IMG/VR virus record: IMGVR_UViG_3300009551_000003
Coordinates: 54,696-118,695 of that record
Strand: one strand, 5' to 3'
Source of the DNA: a virus
DNA: 64,000 nt
The notes beneath the pieces were generated by a model. That model saw nothing but the letters and a program-made list of their open reading frames with translations. It searched no databases and was not told where the DNA came from. The position numbers and the translations under genes were made by a program. This document shows positions 37,240 through 64,000 of this stretch, piece after piece; the stretch's first letter is position 1, and each line of letters starts with the position of its first letter.

Positions 37240-37701
37240 ATGACTTTGCTCCAGCATGAAATTGACTACATCGCGAACCGCCTCCTCGACAAAATATCCG
37301 AACGGCTCGGCGGAATAATTCGAGCTACCATCCAAAAGGAAATGAAGCTGATGACTGACCAAGCTATTCTTGACCTCACTCAGGCTACCGACGCGATCGT
37401 AGCGGAACTGGCGGCGGTGGTTACCGCACTCCAAACCGACGCGAAGGCGCTCGCCGACGCCCTCGCCCAAGCTGCGGCGAACGCCGGCACGACTCTCGAT
37501 CCGCTTATCGCGGCTCAGACCAAGCGGCTGACGGATGGAACCACGGCTGCTGTTGCGGCAGTTACCGCCCTTCAGGCGCCCGTCAGCACGTCCACCGCTG
37601 CCCCGGCTCCTTCGGACGCCCCGGCGCCGGCACCGGCCCCTGCCCCTGCGCCAGCCCCGGCAACCGATGCTCCAGCGACTCCGGCGGCTCCGACCGCGTA
37701 A
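37240..37701 (+). CDS. Coiled-coil protein with Pro-Ala repeat tail
   Basis: A 153-residue protein starting at ATG 37240 with AGAGGA 7 bases upstream. Residues 1-110 form an Ala/Leu/Asp-rich coiled coil (DAIVAELAAVVTALQTDAKAL); the last 40 residues are a PAPAPA-type tail. Tail fibre or capsid-decoration stalks sometimes have this structure. It is the last gene of the plus-strand half, has its own promoter and ends in a strong terminator, so it is probably made abundantly and independently. Confidence 0.6.
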   Translation: MTLLQHEIDYIANRLLDKISERLGGIIRATIQKEMKLMTDQAILDLTQATDAIVAELAAVVTALQTDAKALADALAQAAANAGTTLDPLIAAQTKRLTDGTTAAVAAVTALQAPVSTSTAAPAPSDAPAPAPAPAPAPAPATDAPATPAAPTA

Positions 37702-37721
37702 GACGGTCCAGCCGACCACGG

Positions 37722-37755
37722 AAAAAGCCCCGGGATGTGACCCCCGGGGCTTTTT
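37722..37755. terminator. Bidirectional terminator between the two genome halves
   Basis: AAAAAGCCCCGGG and CCCGGGGCTTTTT form a 13-bp stem around an 8-base loop, with T runs on both strands. It lies between convergent genes ending at 37701 (plus) and 37770 (minus). Confidence 0.9.
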
Positions 37756-37769
37756 CTTTGCGTCAATTT

Positions 37770-38102
37770 TCAGCGGAACTTGCAGGCCGGAACGAACCGG
37801 CCGCCGGACGGATGCAGTCGGCGGTATTCGTGACTCTTCGGGACTGACAAGGCGCCCATGTGTATCAAGCGGCGCCGCCGGTTGGTTCCGGCCGGGCGGG
37901 CAAAGTTCCGCCAGCCCTTGCGAGGATGCAGCCAAGCATGGTGGGTTCGGCGGACCTCGGGCTCGACCGCCGCATTATCACCCACCATGATCTCGGCAAG
38001 TTGAGCGGTTGTGATATCCTGTGCTCCAGCGGCCACGAGCGCGGCAGCGGCAGCTTTGATGCTCTCGACGAAGCTCGGCTTGGAGGTAGGAGGAGCATTC
38101 AT
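37770..38102 (-). CDS. Small hypothetical protein with basic C-terminus
   Basis: A 110-residue protein. The N-terminal helix (AAAAALVAAGAQDITTAQLAEIM) leads to a basic, aromatic region (HHAWLHPRKGWRNFARP, GTNRRRR). It may bind nucleic acid. GAGG lies 7 bases before the ATG. It is the last gene of the leftward operon. The family is not recognised. Confidence 0.55.
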   Translation of the reverse strand: MNAPPTSKPSFVESIKAAAAALVAAGAQDITTAQLAEIMVGDNAAVEPEVRRTHHAWLHPRKGWRNFARPAGTNRRRRLIHMGALSVPKSHEYRRLHPSGGRFVPACKFR

Positions 38103-38103
38103 T

Positions 38104-38553
38104 TCAAATCCTCATGGGTTCGAGTTGCAGGATCATCAGATGCCACGAATCCATTTCGCGCACAACCTCGAATCCAAATTTTTTGAAGAAGCCCGGCTTC
38201 TGTGTCCACAACGAGACAACGCTGCCGCCGCGAAGCTTGATCTCCGCGAGACGATGACGCGTCAGGGCCTCTCCGATGTGCAAGCCTTGACAGTCTTCAG
38301 CGACTACGATCCAGATCAAATCGTAGTCACCCTTCATTCGCATTGACGGACAGTACGCCGCAAACCCGGCGAGGCCGCCTTCTGGCCAATCAGGTCTATC
38401 GACGACGAAAAATTTCGGCGCGTAGGGACCGCCCTTATAGTATTCGATCATCTGATCGCGTGCGCGATCGGCGGTCTCGACACCCCAGTTGTCTCGGACA
38501 AGCTTGCATGCTTCGAGAACATCAGCGTAGAGCATTTCGCGAACTTCGATCAC
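38104..38553 (-). CDS. GNAT-family acetyltransferase
   Basis: A 149-residue protein that would transfer an acetyl group from acetyl-CoA to an unknown amine. It has a central strand DYDLIWIVVAEDCQGLHIGEAL with the Q-G-x-H-I-G coenzyme A loop, and a C-terminal FFKKFGFEVVREM that is typical of GNAT enzymes. The start is GTG 38553, which overlaps the upstream stop as GTGA; ATG 38535 is an alternative. It is a possible modifier of host proteins or nucleotides. Confidence 0.75.
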   Translation of the reverse strand: MIEVREMLYADVLEACKLVRDNWGVETADRARDQMIEYYKGGPYAPKFFVVDRPDWPEGGLAGFAAYCPSMRMKGDYDLIWIVVAEDCQGLHIGEALTRHRLAEIKLRGGSVVSLWTQKPGFFKKFGFEVVREMDSWHLMILQLEPMRI

Positions 38554-42286: not shown

Positions 42287-42705
42287 CAGAGGTTTTTATT
42301 GACGCCGTCTTCGTCAAATTTCTTCGCGGCCAATTTCTCTGCTAGAATTGCCTTGTTCTTTGCGATCACCTCTTCATCCCAGATCGGGAGCCCGTCGCGC
42401 TCGCGCTGCTTGAGAGAGGTCTCCAGATTCGCAAACGCTCGCCATGCGAGCTTGCCTTCATGGAGCGCACCATCGTCCGGATCGAATGTGCCTTGTTCAA
42501 TCAGATGTCGGGTGATGCAGTCGGGATGATCCATGCTCTTGCCCTCGGCCCAGTGCAGCGGTTCGCCGGGGTTGTGCTTGTCGTTGCCGAGCACGGAGAT
42601 GCGCGCGACGTATGCCGCAGCGCGCGGGAAATATTTGAGCATGCCGCTGAAGATCGGGGTGTCTTTTCGGAGAGCCGAATCGGTCGGGAGGATTGACTTG
42701 GTCAT
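42286..42705 (-). CDS. dATP/dGTP diphosphohydrolase-domain protein (MazZ/DUF5664-like)
   Basis: A 139-residue protein with RKDTPIFSGMLKYFPRAAAYVARISVLGNDKH, then HWAEGKSMDHPDCITRHLIEQG and HEGKLAWRAFANLETSL (shown in parts), which is the block of the DUF5664 (dGTP_diPhyd_N) family. In 2-aminoadenine phages MazZ makes dGMP from dGTP for the dZTP pathway; elsewhere members trim dNTP pools. An HD phosphohydrolase and a family A polymerase are encoded nearby, but no PurZ is in the window. Confidence 0.75.
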   Translation of the reverse strand: MTKSILPTDSALRKDTPIFSGMLKYFPRAAAYVARISVLGNDKHNPGEPLHWAEGKSMDHPDCITRHLIEQGTFDPDDGALHEGKLAWRAFANLETSLKQRERDGLPIWDEEVIAKNKAILAEKLAAKKFDEDGVNKNL

Positions 42706-42944
42706 TTGTACTCTTTCAGCGTTAGTGTTTTGGCAGTCATGACAATACCGGCATCGTCCATAGAGCCTAGCGCTTCAGCCGCGATCTTCAACTGCTCAAT
42801 GCGTTCGGCGAGACGAGAGCATTTGGTGCGATCTGTTATAAGTTCGCGGTCATGATAGCTGATGCTGCTCTTCACACTCTCCAATTCGGCTTCAAGGGCG
42901 GCCTTAGTATCCCACAAGGTCTTGCGCGTTTCCTCATATGCCAC
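42702..42944 (-). CDS. Small coiled-coil protein
   Basis: An 80-residue protein that is nearly all heptad-like helix (ALEAELESVKSSISYHDREL). It overlaps the next gene by ATGA. It could dimerise or bind a partner; the family is not recognised. Confidence 0.65.
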   Translation of the reverse strand: MAYEETRKTLWDTKAALEAELESVKSSISYHDRELITDRTKCSRLAERIEQLKIAAEALGSMDDAGIVMTAKTLTLKEYK

Positions 42945-42947
42945 GGC

Positions 42948-43160
42948 TTACCTCCGATCGATTTGTTCACGAGCGTTCTTGCCGGCCAGACGAACGTCCG
43001 CGAGGACGCCGTCGAGAAATCCGAAGAAAAAGCTGAGGGACTTGTCGCCGTTTTCCTCCATTTCGATCTCTTCGATACGCTCGATCACTTGCAGGAAAGG
43101 AGTGCTCGCGACATAAGCTTCGCGTCCCTCAACGAATCGCTCGGCATCAACCTTGGACAC
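42948..43160 (-). CDS. Small hypothetical protein
   Basis: A 70-residue protein read from GTG 43160, supported by AGAGG 6 bases upstream and a 14-base overlap with the preceding gene; a longer reading from 43292 would be out of frame with that gene. It is helical and acidic then basic (ERIEEIEMEENGDKSLSFF). Not recognised. Confidence 0.6.
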   Translation of the reverse strand: MSKVDAERFVEGREAYVASTPFLQVIERIEEIEMEENGDKSLSFFFGFLDGVLADVRLAGKNAREQIDRR

Positions 43161-43566
43161 GGGCCGCCTCTTCGGAGGAGATGGCTGGATTCGCGGTGTG
43201 ATAGGGCTCCGCGCGCTTGGCCCGGGTGTAGTCCTCGCCGGCAGCAAGCTTGCGCTTGATCTCACTGCGGAGGAAGGCAGCGGCGACGACAAGGTTGGCC
43301 ACGTCGCTGCCGTAGTCGCGGAAGCCGTCCCAATCCTTCGGATAGAAGTCGTCCTTGCAGTGAGCGACAGCTACATCCGACGAGACACCTCTGCTCTTCA
43401 GAGCGACGACGCCGATCTGCGCCATGGCGGCATCGGCCATCTGTCCGGCGGTCGCGTCGGCGCGGTCATTGCCGACACCCCACATTTTATCTTGAATCGC
43501 GACTTCGCTCGCGATCAGCTTGTCTGCAAGATAGCCGGCCTCGATTGCATCTTTCTCATTGGACAT
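43147..43566 (-). CDS. Conserved phage protein with GNDRADATAGQM motif
   Basis: A 139-residue protein. The SEVAIQDKMWGVGNDRADATAG and later FLRSEIKRKLAAGEDYTR blocks occur in many uncharacterised phage proteins, and the first half slightly resembles the helical scaffold of NTP pyrophosphatase-like proteins. A putative promoter lies 40 bases upstream. It starts a seven-gene leftward group ending near 40129. Confidence 0.6.
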   Translation of the reverse strand: MSNEKDAIEAGYLADKLIASEVAIQDKMWGVGNDRADATAGQMADAAMAQIGVVALKSRGVSSDVAVAHCKDDFYPKDWDGFRDYGSDVANLVVAAAFLRSEIKRKLAAGEDYTRAKRAEPYHTANPAISSEEAARVQG

Positions 43567-43604
43567 GGATTCGGCTCCAGAGGAGGTTGGCGGAACAATG
43601 CCGC

Positions 43605-43633
43605 TTGCTACCCGTCTCTGGAGCCGATGTCAA
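43605..43633 (-). promoter_or_regulatory. Putative minus-strand promoter
   Basis: TTGACA (43628-43633) is 17 bp from TAGCAA (43605-43610), 40 bases before the ATG at 43566. The -35 is perfect. Confidence 0.55.
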
Positions 43634-43649
43634 GATAGTTAACAAAAGG

Positions 43650-43735
43650 GAAATGGGGAGCGGCGCGGGCAGCACCCCGGCTCACTCCCCATCCCCGGAC
43701 GCGACGACGCGGGGCAGGCTGGGGGATGCGTCGTC
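43650..43735 (-). terminator. Hairpin pair ending the AAA+ cassette transcript
   Basis: GACGACGC (43703-43710) pairs with 43728-43735, and a second GC-rich stem with GGGGAG/CTCCCC arms follows (about 43652-43688), then ATTTCCCTTTTG on the minus strand. It lies after the gene at 43745 and before the next promoter. The region 43567-43744 has no gene. Confidence 0.5.
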
Positions 43736-43744
43736 CCGTGTAGC

Positions 43745-43918
43745 TCAGTCCTGATCCAGAAGCACACGCGCGTCGGATCGAGGGAGACCGTCCAGATGCG
43801 ATGCACCAAAAAGCAGTGCACCGTGCCTGATGCAGCGCGGTGGATCACCCCGCCGAAGTGCCGTATCCTCGTCGAACAGACAGACAGTTTCGTTCCTATC
43901 TGTCACGTCGCAAGTCAT
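43745..43918 (-). CDS. Small conserved phage protein
   Basis: A 57-residue protein starting at ATG 43918, 8 bases after the upstream stop. TVCLFDEDTALRRG, PPRCIRHGALLFG and SHLDGLPRSDARVLLD resemble a recurrent small phage family I know only as hypothetical. Two Cys could bind metal. It is the last gene of the AAA+ cassette transcript. Confidence 0.55.
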   Translation of the reverse strand: MTCDVTDRNETVCLFDEDTALRRGDPPRCIRHGALLFGASHLDGLPRSDARVLLDQD

Positions 43919-43926
43919 CCAGCGTG

Positions 43927-44271
43927 TCAATGGCCGTGATGCCACGTCTCGCCTCCGTCGTGAGAATGGTGCCCGGCAGCGAGCGCTTGACGATCGACAG
44001 CCCGGCCGGCGACTTGTTCGGCCGCAGTGATCTTGGCCTTGGTCAAAGCGCTGCCCGAAACCATCAGCCGGCGATACACGCACGCGTCGGTCACGCCGTC
44101 GCGGAGGTTTTCGTCGAGGCCTTGGAAGGCAATAGCGCCAGTCTTCTTGTCCACTACCGGCTTGACTTTGCCGGCAGCGATCAGGCTATTGACGTCGTAG
44201 ACCACCTTTTGGACTTCAGCTTTGCGTTGCTGGATCGTCTGGCGGAGTTTCAGTCGGGTGTCACAGGGCAT
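43927..44271 (-). CDS. AAA+ cassette protein with His-rich C-terminus
   Basis: A 114-residue protein. It opens MPCDTRLKLRQTIQQRK, has TDACVYRRLMVSGSAL in the middle, and ends HHSHDGGETWHHGH, with six His in 15 residues, which suggests metal binding. It is the third downstream partner of the Ycf46-like ATPase and shares the repeated CCTACAGCACTAGGAG leader. In bacteria such ATPases have small partner proteins of unclear function; this may be one. Confidence 0.6.
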   Translation of the reverse strand: MPCDTRLKLRQTIQQRKAEVQKVVYDVNSLIAAGKVKPVVDKKTGAIAFQGLDENLRDGVTDACVYRRLMVSGSALTKAKITAAEQVAGRAVDRQALAAGHHSHDGGETWHHGH

Positions 44272-44277
44272 TGATCT

Positions 44278-44293
44278 CTCCTAGTGCTGTAGG
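44278..44293 (-). promoter_or_regulatory. Repeated leader/RBS element, copy 1
   Basis: Minus strand CCTACAGCACTAGGAG, placing AGGAG 6 bases before the ATG at 44271. Identical copies precede 46853 and 47150; a near copy precedes 45148. Confidence 0.75.
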
Positions 44294-44313
44294 ATGGACG
44301 AAGGATATCAGCA

Positions 44314-44344
44314 CCGCCGGCTGCCCGTCAAGGACAGCCGGCGG
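44314..44344 (-). other. Intercistronic hairpin in the AAA+ cassette
   Basis: CCGCCGGCTG pairs perfectly with CAGCCGGCGG around an 11-base loop, without a U tract, between the gene at 44351 and the repeated leader at 44278. Confidence 0.55.
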
Positions 44345-44350
44345 GGATGG

Positions 44351-45148
44351 TTACTCAATCTCCAGTTCGTTCGCCAGCGTCTCGACAGCCGACTTAGGCC
44401 TGCCACTGTCAGCAACCGGCTCGAAGTCGAGAGCCCGGCCCTCGTGCGTCGGCGCGGCGATCTCTCCGGCTTCGTCAAGGTCGAGGAACGCGGTGCGCGC
44501 TTCGGCCAAGGTCTTCAACGTGGCTTGGTCGATCTCGACAGCCGCCGTCTCGCCGGCCGCAACGATCTTGGTCGCTACCGCCCGGGCGGCCTTGAGCCCG
44601 GTCTCAATGCGAGCCTGTGCATCCGGCGTCAGCATGCTGCCCAGTTGCTTCGTGCGCTTGGCCGCGTCGCGGATCAGCGTCACGTCGAGGTTCTTAACAC
44701 CCTCCTCCATGTCGGCGATAAGTTCGCGAACCTCTCGGTTTATCGCGCGGACCGCCGTCACGTCATCGGGAGCAATGCGCCCAGTGATGGCGTTGAAATA
44801 AATCGTAGTAATGCGGGACGTGCGGTTGAAGTCGTCGCAGAGTTTGCGAGCGTCGGCTAGGGCAGTCTGAAGCTTCTTTTCGTTGTTGTCCGGGCAGAGA
44901 TACCCGAACGCCGAAGCCGCACAAACCGAAGCGACGAGGCCTCGGGCCTTGCTGCGGATTTTCGTCGCGGCATCTAACTCCTCCGCGTCGCGAATGGTGC
45001 GGTCAGTCTGCCATGCCGCCTTGCGGGCGCCGTCCTCGATCGCGTGATCTTCCTCGATCACGGTTTTGAAGTAGTCAACGTTGCCCTTGATCGAAGTCGA
45101 AAGGCCGACGAGAAGACCCGGGCGAAGGGTTGTGGAAGCGAATGACAT
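44351..45148 (-). CDS. Partner protein of the Ycf46-like ATPase
   Basis: A 265-residue, mostly helical protein. It starts SFASTTLRPGLLVGLSTS, has an ASAFGYLCPDNNEK segment near 80 and GRIAPDDVTAVRAINREV near 128, then a long Ala/Glu/Lys helix and an acidic end. I know this protein as a companion of AAA+ ATPases in several phages, without function. It could be the substrate adaptor or filament subunit for the ATPase. It carries a variant of the repeated leader. Confidence 0.6.
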   Translation of the reverse strand: MSFASTTLRPGLLVGLSTSIKGNVDYFKTVIEEDHAIEDGARKAAWQTDRTIRDAEELDAATKIRSKARGLVASVCAASAFGYLCPDNNEKKLQTALADARKLCDDFNRTSRITTIYFNAITGRIAPDDVTAVRAINREVRELIADMEEGVKNLDVTLIRDAAKRTKQLGSMLTPDAQARIETGLKAARAVATKIVAAGETAAVEIDQATLKTLAEARTAFLDLDEAGEIAAPTHEGRALDFEPVADSGRPKSAVETLANELEIE

Positions 45149-45157
45149 TTTGTGGTT

Positions 45158-45171
45158 CTCCAGTGCTGTAG
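45158..45171 (-). promoter_or_regulatory. Repeated leader/RBS element, variant copy 2
   Basis: Minus strand CTACAGCACTGGAG, one TA shorter than the other copies, placing GGAG 9 bases before the ATG at 45148. Confidence 0.65.
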
Positions 45172-45201
45172 AGGTTCAAGTGATCCTAGATTTATCACCG
45201 G

Positions 45202-45229
45202 CCCACGCCGCCTTCAAGAGCGGCGTGGG
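45202..45229 (-). other. Intercistronic hairpin in the AAA+ cassette
   Basis: CCCACGCCGC pairs perfectly with GCGGCGTGGG around an 8-base loop, 20 bases after the ATPase stop. No U tract follows on either strand. Confidence 0.55.
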
Positions 45230-45248
45230 GTATTGGTTAACAGGTCGT

Positions 45249-46853
45249 TTAGATATCCAACTCGCGGCCGACCTTGGCGACTTCGTTGGCTTTGACGACG
45301 GACGCCGGCCGGGCCTTTTCCTTGGCCCAGTTGCGGAGCTTCGTGATCTTAGGCTCCGCAGACTTGCTCAGCGGATAGACATGCTTCGCAGCTTCGAGAA
45401 TGTCCGCCGTAGTGATCTCGCGAGCATCTTCTGCGAACGCCTCGAACAGCGCGGCCGGAACAAGCTCGGCGATCTCCGAACCCGTGAAGCCTTCCGACAC
45501 CTTGGCGACAGCTTCGAGGTTGATCTTGACGGTCTCGCGACCATGTTGCTTCAGCGCGGCTTTCAGAACGGCTTTACGTTCTTCGAACACCGGCAAGTCA
45601 ACGAACCAAGTTTCGTCGAACCGACCCTTGCGCAGAAGCTCCGGCGGGAGTGCTTCAACATCGTTCGCAGTGGCGATAATAAACGCCTCCGAAGTGCGGT
45701 CTTGCATCCACGACAGGATAGCGCCGAGAGCATCCGACGACACGCCGCCGTCAGCCGACCCCGAAGTCGCGCCCTGCATTGCCTTCTCGATCTCGTCGAT
45801 CCAGACCACGCAACGGCCGATCGCTTCGATCACCTTTAGAGCCTTCCGGAGGTTGCCCTCGCTCTCGCCCACGAACTTGCCCTTGAGAGCGCCAAGGTCA
45901 AGACGGAGGAGCGGGACTTCCCACGCGGTAGCGATGGCTTTCGCAGTGAGCGACTTACCGCAACCCGAGATACCGACAAGCACACCGCCCTTCGGCGACG
46001 GCAGACCATATTCTCGGGCCTTGGTGCTATATGCGCTCTTCCGAGAAACCAGCCAAGCCTTCAGGTTCTCCAAACCACCGACAGCGTCGAGGCCGCCCTT
46101 GATCGGATCAACCCATTCCAACACGCGCTCACGCGCGATGACTCGTTTCTTCTCATTTGACACGACAGCGGGGTCGATCTTCTTCGTCTGCACGAGCGAC
46201 TTAGCATAGCAGGCGGCGGCCTCTTCTGAAGTTAAGCCCACGGCCGCGTCGATCGCCGCGTCACGCGTGCCATTCGGGGCAGCGTCCGCGCGGAGAGTTT
46301 CCGGCAGTGAGTTGATCGCGGCCGACAGGACAGCCTCGATCTCCGAACGATCCGGGAGCGGCCACTCAATGACAGTCGCATGGCCGGCCAGTTCCGGCGG
46401 CAGATTAGTTTCGGTCGTCAAAATGATGACAGCCTGTGCGTTCTTCCGAGCAACGCCCGGGAGGTACTTCGCGAGATTGCGAAGCTGGCGAAGCGGCGTG
46501 GCGCCCGGCGTACCATTGAGCCACACCGGAAGATCACGCATGATCCACACGTTGCGCTGGCCATCCGCCGAAGATTTGTCGTCGGCACGCGCCTTGATTG
46601 CGCCAAGAGTTTCGCCCGGATCAGCCGAGCCAAGGCGGCTGTTCACTTTGCCATCCAGCCCGGTCACGCCTTGAGCCACGTCCCAGAACAACGGTTCGTA
46701 GCCGGCCGACGCACCGGCTTCGGCAAGGAAGCTCTCGACGCGAGTTTCTTCGCGAGAGATGATCCAGATCAAAGGATTGCGGGCGCGGAGGAGAGCCGAG
46801 ATATCGGCTGCAACCTTCTGGCCTTTAGACAGGGTCTTTGTTTCGGTAGTCAT
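45249..46853 (-). CDS. Ycf46-like AAA+ ATPase
   Basis: A 534-residue protein starting at ATG 46853 (7 bases after AGGAG). The N-terminal 250 residues match the Ycf46 arrangement, with RNPLIWIISREETRVESFL and a degenerate ATPase-like region (NVWIMRDLPVWL). The AAA+ core has GGLENLKAWL, the Walker A GISGCGKS (294-301), VGESEGNLRKAL, Walker B CVVWIDEIEKA (D353, E354), and a sensor FIIATANDVEALPPELLRKGRFDE. The C-terminus (about 460-534) is basic. Ycf46 proteins have no firm function; here it heads a four-gene cassette with identical leaders. Confidence 0.87.
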   Translation of the reverse strand: MTTETKTLSKGQKVAADISALLRARNPLIWIISREETRVESFLAEAGASAGYEPLFWDVAQGVTGLDGKVNSRLGSADPGETLGAIKARADDKSSADGQRNVWIMRDLPVWLNGTPGATPLRQLRNLAKYLPGVARKNAQAVIILTTETNLPPELAGHATVIEWPLPDRSEIEAVLSAAINSLPETLRADAAPNGTRDAAIDAAVGLTSEEAAACYAKSLVQTKKIDPAVVSNEKKRVIARERVLEWVDPIKGGLDAVGGLENLKAWLVSRKSAYSTKAREYGLPSPKGGVLVGISGCGKSLTAKAIATAWEVPLLRLDLGALKGKFVGESEGNLRKALKVIEAIGRCVVWIDEIEKAMQGATSGSADGGVSSDALGAILSWMQDRTSEAFIIATANDVEALPPELLRKGRFDETWFVDLPVFEERKAVLKAALKQHGRETVKINLEAVAKVSEGFTGSEIAELVPAALFEAFAEDAREITTADILEAAKHVYPLSKSAEPKITKLRNWAKEKARPASVVKANEVAKVGRELDI

Positions 46854-46860
46854 ATGCAAG

Positions 46861-46876
46861 CTCCTAGTGCTGTAGG
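46861..46876 (-). promoter_or_regulatory. Repeated leader/RBS element, copy 3
   Basis: Minus strand CCTACAGCACTAGGAG, directly before the ATPase start. The 45 bases between it and the upstream gene are GT-rich (GGGTTT repeats). Confidence 0.75.
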
Positions 46877-46904
46877 GGTTTGGGTTTGGATTTGGGTTTG
46901 TGCT

Positions 46905-47150
46905 TCAGGGACGAACGCCAGTGTCGTAATACATGCGAGCGAAAGCGATCATCGCGTTCCTCAATTCTTGCGCGTCCCGGTCTTTGCGGTATTGACGGCG
47001 TTCGCGGGTTTTGAAGTTGCCGGAAGGATGTTCGTATCCGACAAGATCACCGATCACGCGCTCGGCTATGAGTTTGTCGGCATCAACGCCGTTTGGCGCT
47101 GGGATTTTGCCGAAAATCTCGATCCACTGTTCTACGGGTCTTGCGTCCAT
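46905..47150 (-). CDS. First gene of the AAA+ cassette, small hypothetical protein
   Basis: An 81-residue protein with an N-terminal acidic-aromatic part (VEQWIEIFGKIPAP) and a basic helix (KTRERRQYRKDRDAQELR). It precedes the ATPase and shares the repeated leader, with 10 bases between AGGAG and ATG. It may be a regulator or adaptor of the cassette. Not recognised. Confidence 0.6.
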   Translation of the reverse strand: MDARPVEQWIEIFGKIPAPNGVDADKLIAERVIGDLVGYEHPSGNFKTRERRQYRKDRDAQELRNAMIAFARMYYDTGVRP

Positions 47151-47160
47151 TTTTGGTGTG

Positions 47161-47176
47161 CTCCTAGTGCTGTAGG
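47161..47176 (-). promoter_or_regulatory. Repeated leader/RBS element, copy 4
   Basis: Minus strand CCTACAGCACTAGGAG before the ATG at 47150; identical to copies 1 and 3. Confidence 0.75.
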
Positions 47177-47213
47177 GTTGGCCCAGAGATACGCTAGGCG
47201 CGGGAGCTACGCA

Positions 47214-47306
47214 ATGACTGACTTGACAGATGGTAAAGATTCAGTTAAGAAACTCAAATGCCTGCCGAGGTGGGCGGCCTCTGCAACATGGGGCCAGCAA
47301 ATCTAA
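47214..47306 (+). CDS. Possible 30-residue leader peptide or small RNA region
   Basis: ATG 47214 has GGGAG 7 bases upstream and encodes 30 residues (DLTDGKDSVKKLKC within), followed by a strong terminator. Alternatively a promoter inside it makes a short untranslated RNA. It is the only plus-strand signal in this stretch before 47463. Confidence 0.35.
   Translation: MTDLTDGKDSVKKLKCLPRWAASATWGQQI
47223..47257. promoter_or_regulatory. Overlapping divergent promoters
   Basis: Plus strand: TTGACA (47223-47228), 17 bp, TAAGAA (47246-47251). Minus strand: TTGAGT (47252-47257), 16 bp, TACCAT (47230-47235), upstream of the AAA+ cassette. The two occupy the same bases. Confidence 0.4.
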
Positions 47307-63555: not shown

Positions 63556-64000
63556 TTGAACCACCTCAATAGACTGTCACGACAGGCCTCGCCGACTTCG
63601 GCGTTGGTCGCGTCGCGCGGCTTGGCGTCGATCCACTTTTCGTTGATCGGATAGAAGACGCGAGCGTGTTCACCATCGCCGACCGTCTGACGCTCGTTGA
63701 ACGTCACTGTGCCGTCGTAAGGGATGCTCTCGTGAATTTCGGTAGCCTCTTGGTGATAGGTGTCGCCGCCGACGTAAAGCTCTGGACGCCCGGCCACAAG
63801 AATGCAAGAGCCCGGCTGTTGATTATTGTCCATTCCGCCGTCAGGGCCGCACTTAATCTCGATATAATTGTGAGTGCAACGAGACGTGTGAGTTGTATCG
63901 TAAAGCTTTGCGGCCATCCTGTAACGGACGTTGCAAAAACAGCCGGCCACGATCACGCTATCGAAGTGCCACGGATGATCATGGATCGTCGAGACGCCCG
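63552..64000 (-). CDS. Cupin-like protein, 5' end beyond the window
   Basis: The frame is open through the right edge. The N-terminal part visible reads IHDHPWHFDSVIVAGCF, a HxHxxx(5)...cupin-like metal site found in phage proteins of the HDHPW type. The rest is beta-rich (LYVGGDTYHQEATEIHESIP). At least 149 residues are visible. GTG 63956 could be an internal start but the HDHPW motif lies upstream of it, so the gene is truncated. An oxygenase or sugar-modifying role is only a possibility. Confidence 0.65.
   Translation of the reverse strand, partial: GVSTIHDHPWHFDSVIVAGCFCNVRYRMAAKLYDTTHTSRCTHNYIEIKCGPDGGMDNNQQPGSCILVAGRPELYVGGDTYHQEATEIHESIPYDGTVTFNERQTVGDGEHARVFYPINEKWIDAKPRDATNAEVGEACRDSLLRWFK

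Follow-up and report, generated by a model that had tools for sequence, protein, structure and literature searches.

AAA+ ATPases of the Ycf46 type occur on plasmids, in cyanobacteria and in phages, in modules that pair them with Ycf35/DUF1257 and DUF2997 proteins; the literature that we searched gave neither a partner nor a function for them. DUF3150 genes are flanked by genes for MoxR-type AAA and VWA proteins in Cupriavidus and Burkholderia plasmids and in Synechococcus phage MinM2. Here we describe a phage cassette that can be compared with both arrangements: three genes for an AAA+ ATPase, a 265-residue partner and a 114-residue Cys/His protein. It lies in a window of 64,000 nt, the second part (positions 54,696-118,695) of the 118,695-base virus record IMGVR_UViG_3300009551_000003. 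The AAA+ protein appears to be of the same kind as in the Ycf46-type modules, but a DUF3150-like partner and the Cys/His protein are encoded beside it instead, and DUF1257 and DUF2997 had no match in the whole record. As in the MoxR-DUF3150-VWA operons, an AAA+ ATPase is encoded with a protein that is putatively of the DUF3150 type; unlike in those operons, to which the VWA protein belongs, the ATPase is of another AAA+ clade, and neither VWA nor DUF2201 had a match in this phage.

The AAA+ protein and its partner carry the same short C-terminal peptide, R-x-Φ-[D/E]-Φ, in most related loci. We propose, with a probability of about one half, that the trio is a three-component phage AAA+ remodelling system with a tail-docked adaptor, expressed in lytic infection.

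Three co-conserved genes

All three genes were present in 70 of 79 non-redundant viral loci from four IMG/VR scans, and the nine incomplete loci were mostly truncated by contig ends. Because the loci were gathered by searching with one of the three proteins, this rate is not that of a random sample; searches seeded with each of the three in turn agreed on the co-occurrence. The order AAA+, partner, Cys/His was kept in 65 of the 70 complete loci, the AAA+ gene having moved to the end in three and the Cys/His gene standing first in two. The families correspond to phrog_8638, phrog_11021 and phrog_11784, respectively, all PHROGs of unknown function. Each matched 31 Corndog-like mycobacteriophage records, with the same gene order in the two such loci that were read. 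A search of genome contigs with the Cys/His protein gave a single match, a contig of a Rhizobiales metagenome-assembled genome that carries the full trio and is probably a phage contig. At one locus (L044, 4786-6078) an in-frame fusion joins the end of the Cys/His protein to an AAA+ frame that is cut within the AAA domain, and the partner gene is gone, probably as the result of a deletion.

A preliminary description of this DNA had tentatively grouped four genes into one functional system, the fourth being a small regulator. The families of the trio proved to be co-conserved, but the fourth gene, of 81 codons, stands outside the conserved set. Its product had no family in Pfam, PHROGs, NCBIfam or PADLOC and no match in phages, and in IMG/VR only one 16-residue fragment matched. 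By sequence this gene appears private to the present phage. We therefore rejected it as a conserved regulator: it has no comparable relatives, and no regulator signature was found.

The AAA+ protein, aligned with 33 relatives, has a degenerate N-terminal half, a C-terminal AAA+ domain and the C-terminal tail GRELDI. It is ∼41% identical to a Pseudanabaena plasmid protein and similar over its full length to AAA+ proteins encoded beside DUF1257/DUF2997. No Ycf46 model was among its Pfam or NCBIfam matches; the label "Ycf46-like", given in the preliminary description, is reasonable, because AAA+ proteins of this type have Ycf35/DUF1257 and DUF2997 as neighbours on cyanobacterial plasmids. Scores for the proteasomal, FtsH and CDC48 AAA ATPase families fell far under their cut-offs. 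The IetAS anti-phage system fitted no better: the protein scored 61 bits against an IetA cut-off of 510, PADLOC showed a shared AAA core only, and in the test for IetS neither the partner nor the Cys/His protein had a PADLOC or protease match.

The partner consists of a folded domain followed by a disordered tail with GRALDFEP and a terminal ELEIE. Its AlphaFold2 model is a confident alpha/beta structure (predicted local distance difference test, pLDDT, 84), with pLDDT 54-63 in the tail. The model had no PDB match. Among predicted viral proteins, the best Foldseek matches included, besides a Corndog-like homologue, a DUF3150 protein (probability 0.99, TM score ∼0.4). An hhalign comparison with DUF3150 was colinear over the first 110 residues and scored 31.3, against a maximum of 22.8 among 60 shuffled decoys. 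For 32 relatives of the partner, the 25 most often matched families did not include DUF3150, and an IMG/VR scan with plasmid DUF3150 proteins gave no matches. By profile and model, the partner is a putative distant DUF3150-like protein, and the position of DUF3150 genes between MoxR-type AAA and VWA genes supports a role as AAA partner.

The Cys/His protein starts with MPCDT and ends with HSHDGGETWH; C3, D62, C64, R67, H102 and H104 are among the residues invariant across 33 relatives. We would guess that it binds metal. Its AlphaFold2 model is confident (pLDDT 90), and no fold in the PDB matched it. As a relative of DUF1257 or DUF2997 it was rejected by hhalign (probabilities 0.2 and 6).

The proteins are known to be made in the Corndog-like phages (cluster O), in which genes 93, 95 and 96/97 are of the same three families, in the same order, and are expressed in lytic infection (PMC4351075). 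We assigned gp93, gp95 and gp96 to the trio by order, length and coordinates and via the relative Catdawg. Peptide counts in once CsCl-banded material, twice CsCl-banded material and cells were 52, 0 and 15 for gp93, the Cys/His protein; 5, 0 and 1 for gp95; and 0, 0 and 3 for gp96, the AAA protein (PMC4351075). Lysate or infected cells yielded peptides of all three proteins, twice-banded virions of none; of the three, the Cys/His protein was represented by far more peptides than the others. The annotation in that study goes no further than an AAA ATPase and two hypothetical proteins and does not present the genes as a system; the passages covered here do not mention the tail motif (PMC4351075).

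A C-terminal peptide shared by motor and partner

The AAA+ protein ended in R-x-Φ-[D/E]-Φ, at most three residues from the C-terminus, in 63 of 75 loci, against a background of 0.13% among 8,183 other open reading frames (ORFs) of the loci. Its commonest endings were RALDL, RALDI and RVLDL, and the core Φ-[D/E]-Φ was found in 72 of the 75. The partner tail carried the full motif in 66 of 74 loci, against a background of 3.7%. In the AAA+ protein, linker and tail together vary from 14 to 23 residues with the motif retained; the partner has it ∼12 residues beyond a conserved FLDL and 0-53 residues from the end, usually 15-40. Across the whole genome of the phage, among plausible genes, only these two have the motif near the C-terminus. 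Counting followed upon noticing the pattern: the regular expression was set once the first 33 loci had been inspected. The rate was unchanged in the larger set that includes later loci.

Three actinobacterial plasmid systems end their AAA+ protein and partner in a similar way: GGRRIDF/GGRTLDL, GGRTFEF/PGRRLEF and GGRQIDF/SARKLDI. The partner there is a membrane-type helix-hairpin-helix protein encoded in the same operon and unrelated to the phage partner. These operons (L074, L163 and L164) encode the AAA+ protein, a 141-residue protein, DUF2997, the tail-sharing membrane helix-hairpin-helix protein and a 4Fe-4S protein. Since the AAA+ protein is what the phage and actinobacterial sets have in common, it is the simplest candidate reader of the tail. 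A tentative generalisation is that Ycf46-family AAA+ proteins of phages and plasmids and their partners, even structurally unrelated ones, share R-x-Φ-[D/E]-Φ as a C-terminal docking peptide, and that motor and partner tails compete for one site in a general recruitment code. Some 1,500-1,700 plasmid records match the Ycf46-type AAA+ protein, part of them in the AAA core only.

Leaders, hairpins and surroundings of the cassette

The preliminary description had reported a repeated leader before the genes starting at 44271, 46853 and 47150 and a near copy before 45148, and an exact-match search confirmed it (Table 1). CCTACAGCACTAGGAG stands just upstream of three cassette genes, and the leader before the partner gene, CTACAGCACTGGAG, is one base shorter. 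With up to three mismatches, CCTACAGCACTAGGAG had one further match in the window (0.26 expected by chance); with up to two, it had no further match in the whole 118,695-base record. Among the repeated 15-mers of the genome, the leader is the sole family found to be non-coding and directly before start codons. Three relatives, in records of 61, 84 and 127 kb, have the same leader type, confined to their cassettes, and another pair has a different leader, CAACGCTCARAGGAGCA, likewise confined. Leader pairs scoring at least 11 made up 14% of pairs within cassettes (n = 93 pairs) and 0.6% of pairs across loci (p = 2e-7, an approximate value because the loci are related). Thus, the leader belongs to the cassette alone, where it recurs before the genes, and it varies from one phage lineage to another; it is not spread through the genome.

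The nearest described counterparts are the start-associated sequences (SAS/ESAS) of cluster K mycobacteriophages, short repeats before many start codons, some with upstream inverted repeats (PMC3203893). Like them, the leader is a repeat with a Shine-Dalgarno core immediately 5' of several start codons, those of four cassette genes; the sequence comparison covered that core. Unlike them, it marks one cassette and not many genes genome-wide, and its sequence varies between phage clades. The repeats of cluster O, in contrast, are palindromes not tied to start codons. At record positions 42440-47214, outside the window (∼4440-9214 of L065), ten ORF starts have in common an N-terminal peptide, MKDAKGHGS[N/D]xRG with variants. 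These repeats were rejected as extra leader copies: they are coding sequence, and the ORFs form a protein family with a common N-terminal tag.

Both gaps within the trio contain a hairpin. The preliminary description had put the stems at 10 bp; the hairpins are real and conserved, with stems of 11 bp and 13 bp and z = -3.8 and -4.7 against dinucleotide shuffles. In relatives, gaps of at least 45 nt had z < -2 in 34 of 42 cases between the AAA+ and partner genes and in 24 of 29 between the partner and Cys/His genes, compared with 17% for the remaining same-strand gaps of those loci; these gaps and the controls, taken from a simple choice of ORFs, were scored with mononucleotide shuffles. The hairpins do not look like intrinsic terminators because they have no U-run, and they more probably serve unequal message stability or processing. 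The description of the genes as insulated units holds here, where leaders and hairpins are both present, but about half of the relatives have a partner-Cys/His gap shorter than 20 nt.

An alternative role for the leader is that of a translational operator, in which a hairpin CCUA(CAGCAC)UAGG hides part of the Shine-Dalgarno sequence and a phage repressor binds it, switching the genes together. Three copies fold in this way and the near copy refolds as CUCUA/UGGAG with the same loop; the different leader of L022 also folds over its own Shine-Dalgarno sequence. However, the stems are weak (-2 to -5 kcal/mol), and across 210 cassette starts Shine-Dalgarno pairing was no greater than in shuffles, so Shine-Dalgarno-hiding hairpins were rejected as a general feature of the cassettes. 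We regard the operator as unlikely, if the best of the alternatives.

Table 1. Features of the cassette, in window coordinates
Feature	Position	Strand	Evidence or remark
AAA+ ATPase, 534 aa from ATG at 46853	45249..46853	-	Pfam AAA 2e-27, AAA_lid_3, phrog_8638 3e-172
Partner, 265 aa	44351..45148	-	phrog_11021 1.5e-53
Cys/His protein, 114 aa	43927..44271	-	phrog_11784 7e-36
81-aa ORF with the same leader	46905..47150	-	outside conserved set
Leader copy 1 CCTACAGCACTAGGAG, before 81-aa ORF	47161..47176	-	exact match
Leader copy 2 CCTACAGCACTAGGAG, before AAA+ gene	46861..46876	-	exact match
Leader copy 3 CCTACAGCACTAGGAG, before Cys/His gene	44278..44293	-	exact match
Leader near copy CCTCTACAGCACTGGAG, before partner gene	45157..45173	-	sequence and fold; can form CUCUA(CAGCAC)UGGAG
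Hairpin CCCACGCCGCU/GGCGGCGUGGG, gap between AAA+ and partner genes	45202..45229	-	z -3.76
Hairpin CGCCGGCUGUCC/GGGCAGCCGGCG, gap between partner and Cys/His genes	44314..44344	-	z -4.68

An identical stretch of 123 bases stands at both ends of the record (record 1-123 and window 63878-64000), a direct terminal repeat that makes a complete phage genome probable. Genes for a tape measure protein, a head-tail adaptor, a scaffold and a major head protein identify a tailed phage. Seven tRNA genes (Pro, Trp, Gln, Thr, Met, Ile and Asn) are clustered at record ∼37555-38261, outside the window. The neighbours of the cassette, which is on the minus strand, encode a helicase, a DNA polymerase, exonucleases, a nucleotide phosphatase and a dATP/dGTP hydrolase domain. 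This position among replication and nucleotide genes suggests a part in phage DNA metabolism or host takeover.

How the trio may work

On the gene set, the shared tail, the leaders and hairpins and the published expression we base the following proposal. The AAA+ protein, to judge by its family, would form an ATP-driven ring. The 265-residue protein would serve the motor as a dedicated adaptor or handle, its DUF3150-like folded domain being followed by a flexible tail. Because the adaptor tail carries the peptide that ends the AAA+ subunits, motor and adaptor may share a single docking site, for which the AAA+ ring itself is the simplest location; the motor's own tails would be placeholders that the adaptor displaces. 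The Cys/His protein would be a third soluble component, abundant and possibly metal-binding. Each gene's start element would be the short repeated leader carrying the Shine-Dalgarno sequence; with an element of its own for every gene and hairpins in between, the three proteins could be made in different amounts from one message. The unit is thus predicted to work through its protein tails besides its leader.

Several observations weigh against this proposal. The hhalign probability for DUF3150 is low (16%), and the Pfam model PF11348 had no match in the record at E <= 1, which is why we call the partner DUF3150-like and not a member of the family. The tail likeness is suggestive in most other Ycf46-type systems but not individually significant there, and a claim of significance in every such system was rejected. 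Nor were motor and partner tails clearly more alike within than between phages (p = 0.09), so gene conversion or a phage-specific matching of the two tails was not supported. The docking of the partner on the AAA+ protein is itself an interaction predicted from sequence. The Cys/His protein has neither the shared tail nor a known fold match, and we place it in the putative complex by co-conservation.

The shared tail might instead be a sliding-clamp-binding peptide by which the AAA+ protein and its partner dock on a host or phage beta clamp and act at replication forks. The tail resembles the end of the clamp motif QL[S/D]LF, and the cassette has helicase, polymerase and nuclease genes around it. 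Among the genes of Corndog-like phages is one for a beta clamp (PMC4351075). In the present phage, however, no beta clamp of its own was detected, which would leave the system dependent on the host clamp. Of the 63 matched AAA+ tails only ∼8 have the key Gln, and the conserved residue is Arg. We consider clamp binding improbable.

It is similarly improbable that the three genes are co-travelling neighbours that work independently, each having picked up leader and hairpins as expression elements. Some Corndog-like phages do have extra genes between the three, and the order is rearranged in 5 of the 70 complete loci. Yet the trio is kept together even where its order changes, and two of its three proteins share a tail that is absent from other plausible genes of the phage. 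A C-terminal degradation tag, through which a host protease would clear both proteins late in infection, would suit a short, family-wide peptide at the extreme C-terminus behind a disordered linker, but it is very unlikely, as the partner motif usually lies 15-40 residues from the end and the same tail occurs across different host groups, in phages as well as plasmids.

Neither the three families nor the AAA+ annotation is new. The conserved shared tail, the likeness of the partner to DUF3150 and the private layout of leaders and hairpins appear to be undescribed; within a partial coverage of the literature, we found no paper that deals with DUF3150 or with a phage system of the Ycf46 type. 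A shared peptide at the ends of motor and partner suggests that such motors dock their partners in a manner not yet described. The conserved tail offers a direct and cheap test of who binds whom; for the trio, an established laboratory system is at hand in the Corndog-like phages of Mycobacterium smegmatis, which are known to make its proteins. It is also a search string for partners elsewhere, a clue of interest because Ycf46-type AAA+ proteins are common on plasmids and in phages. If the recruitment code is true, it could predict the partners of a large uncharacterised family of motors.

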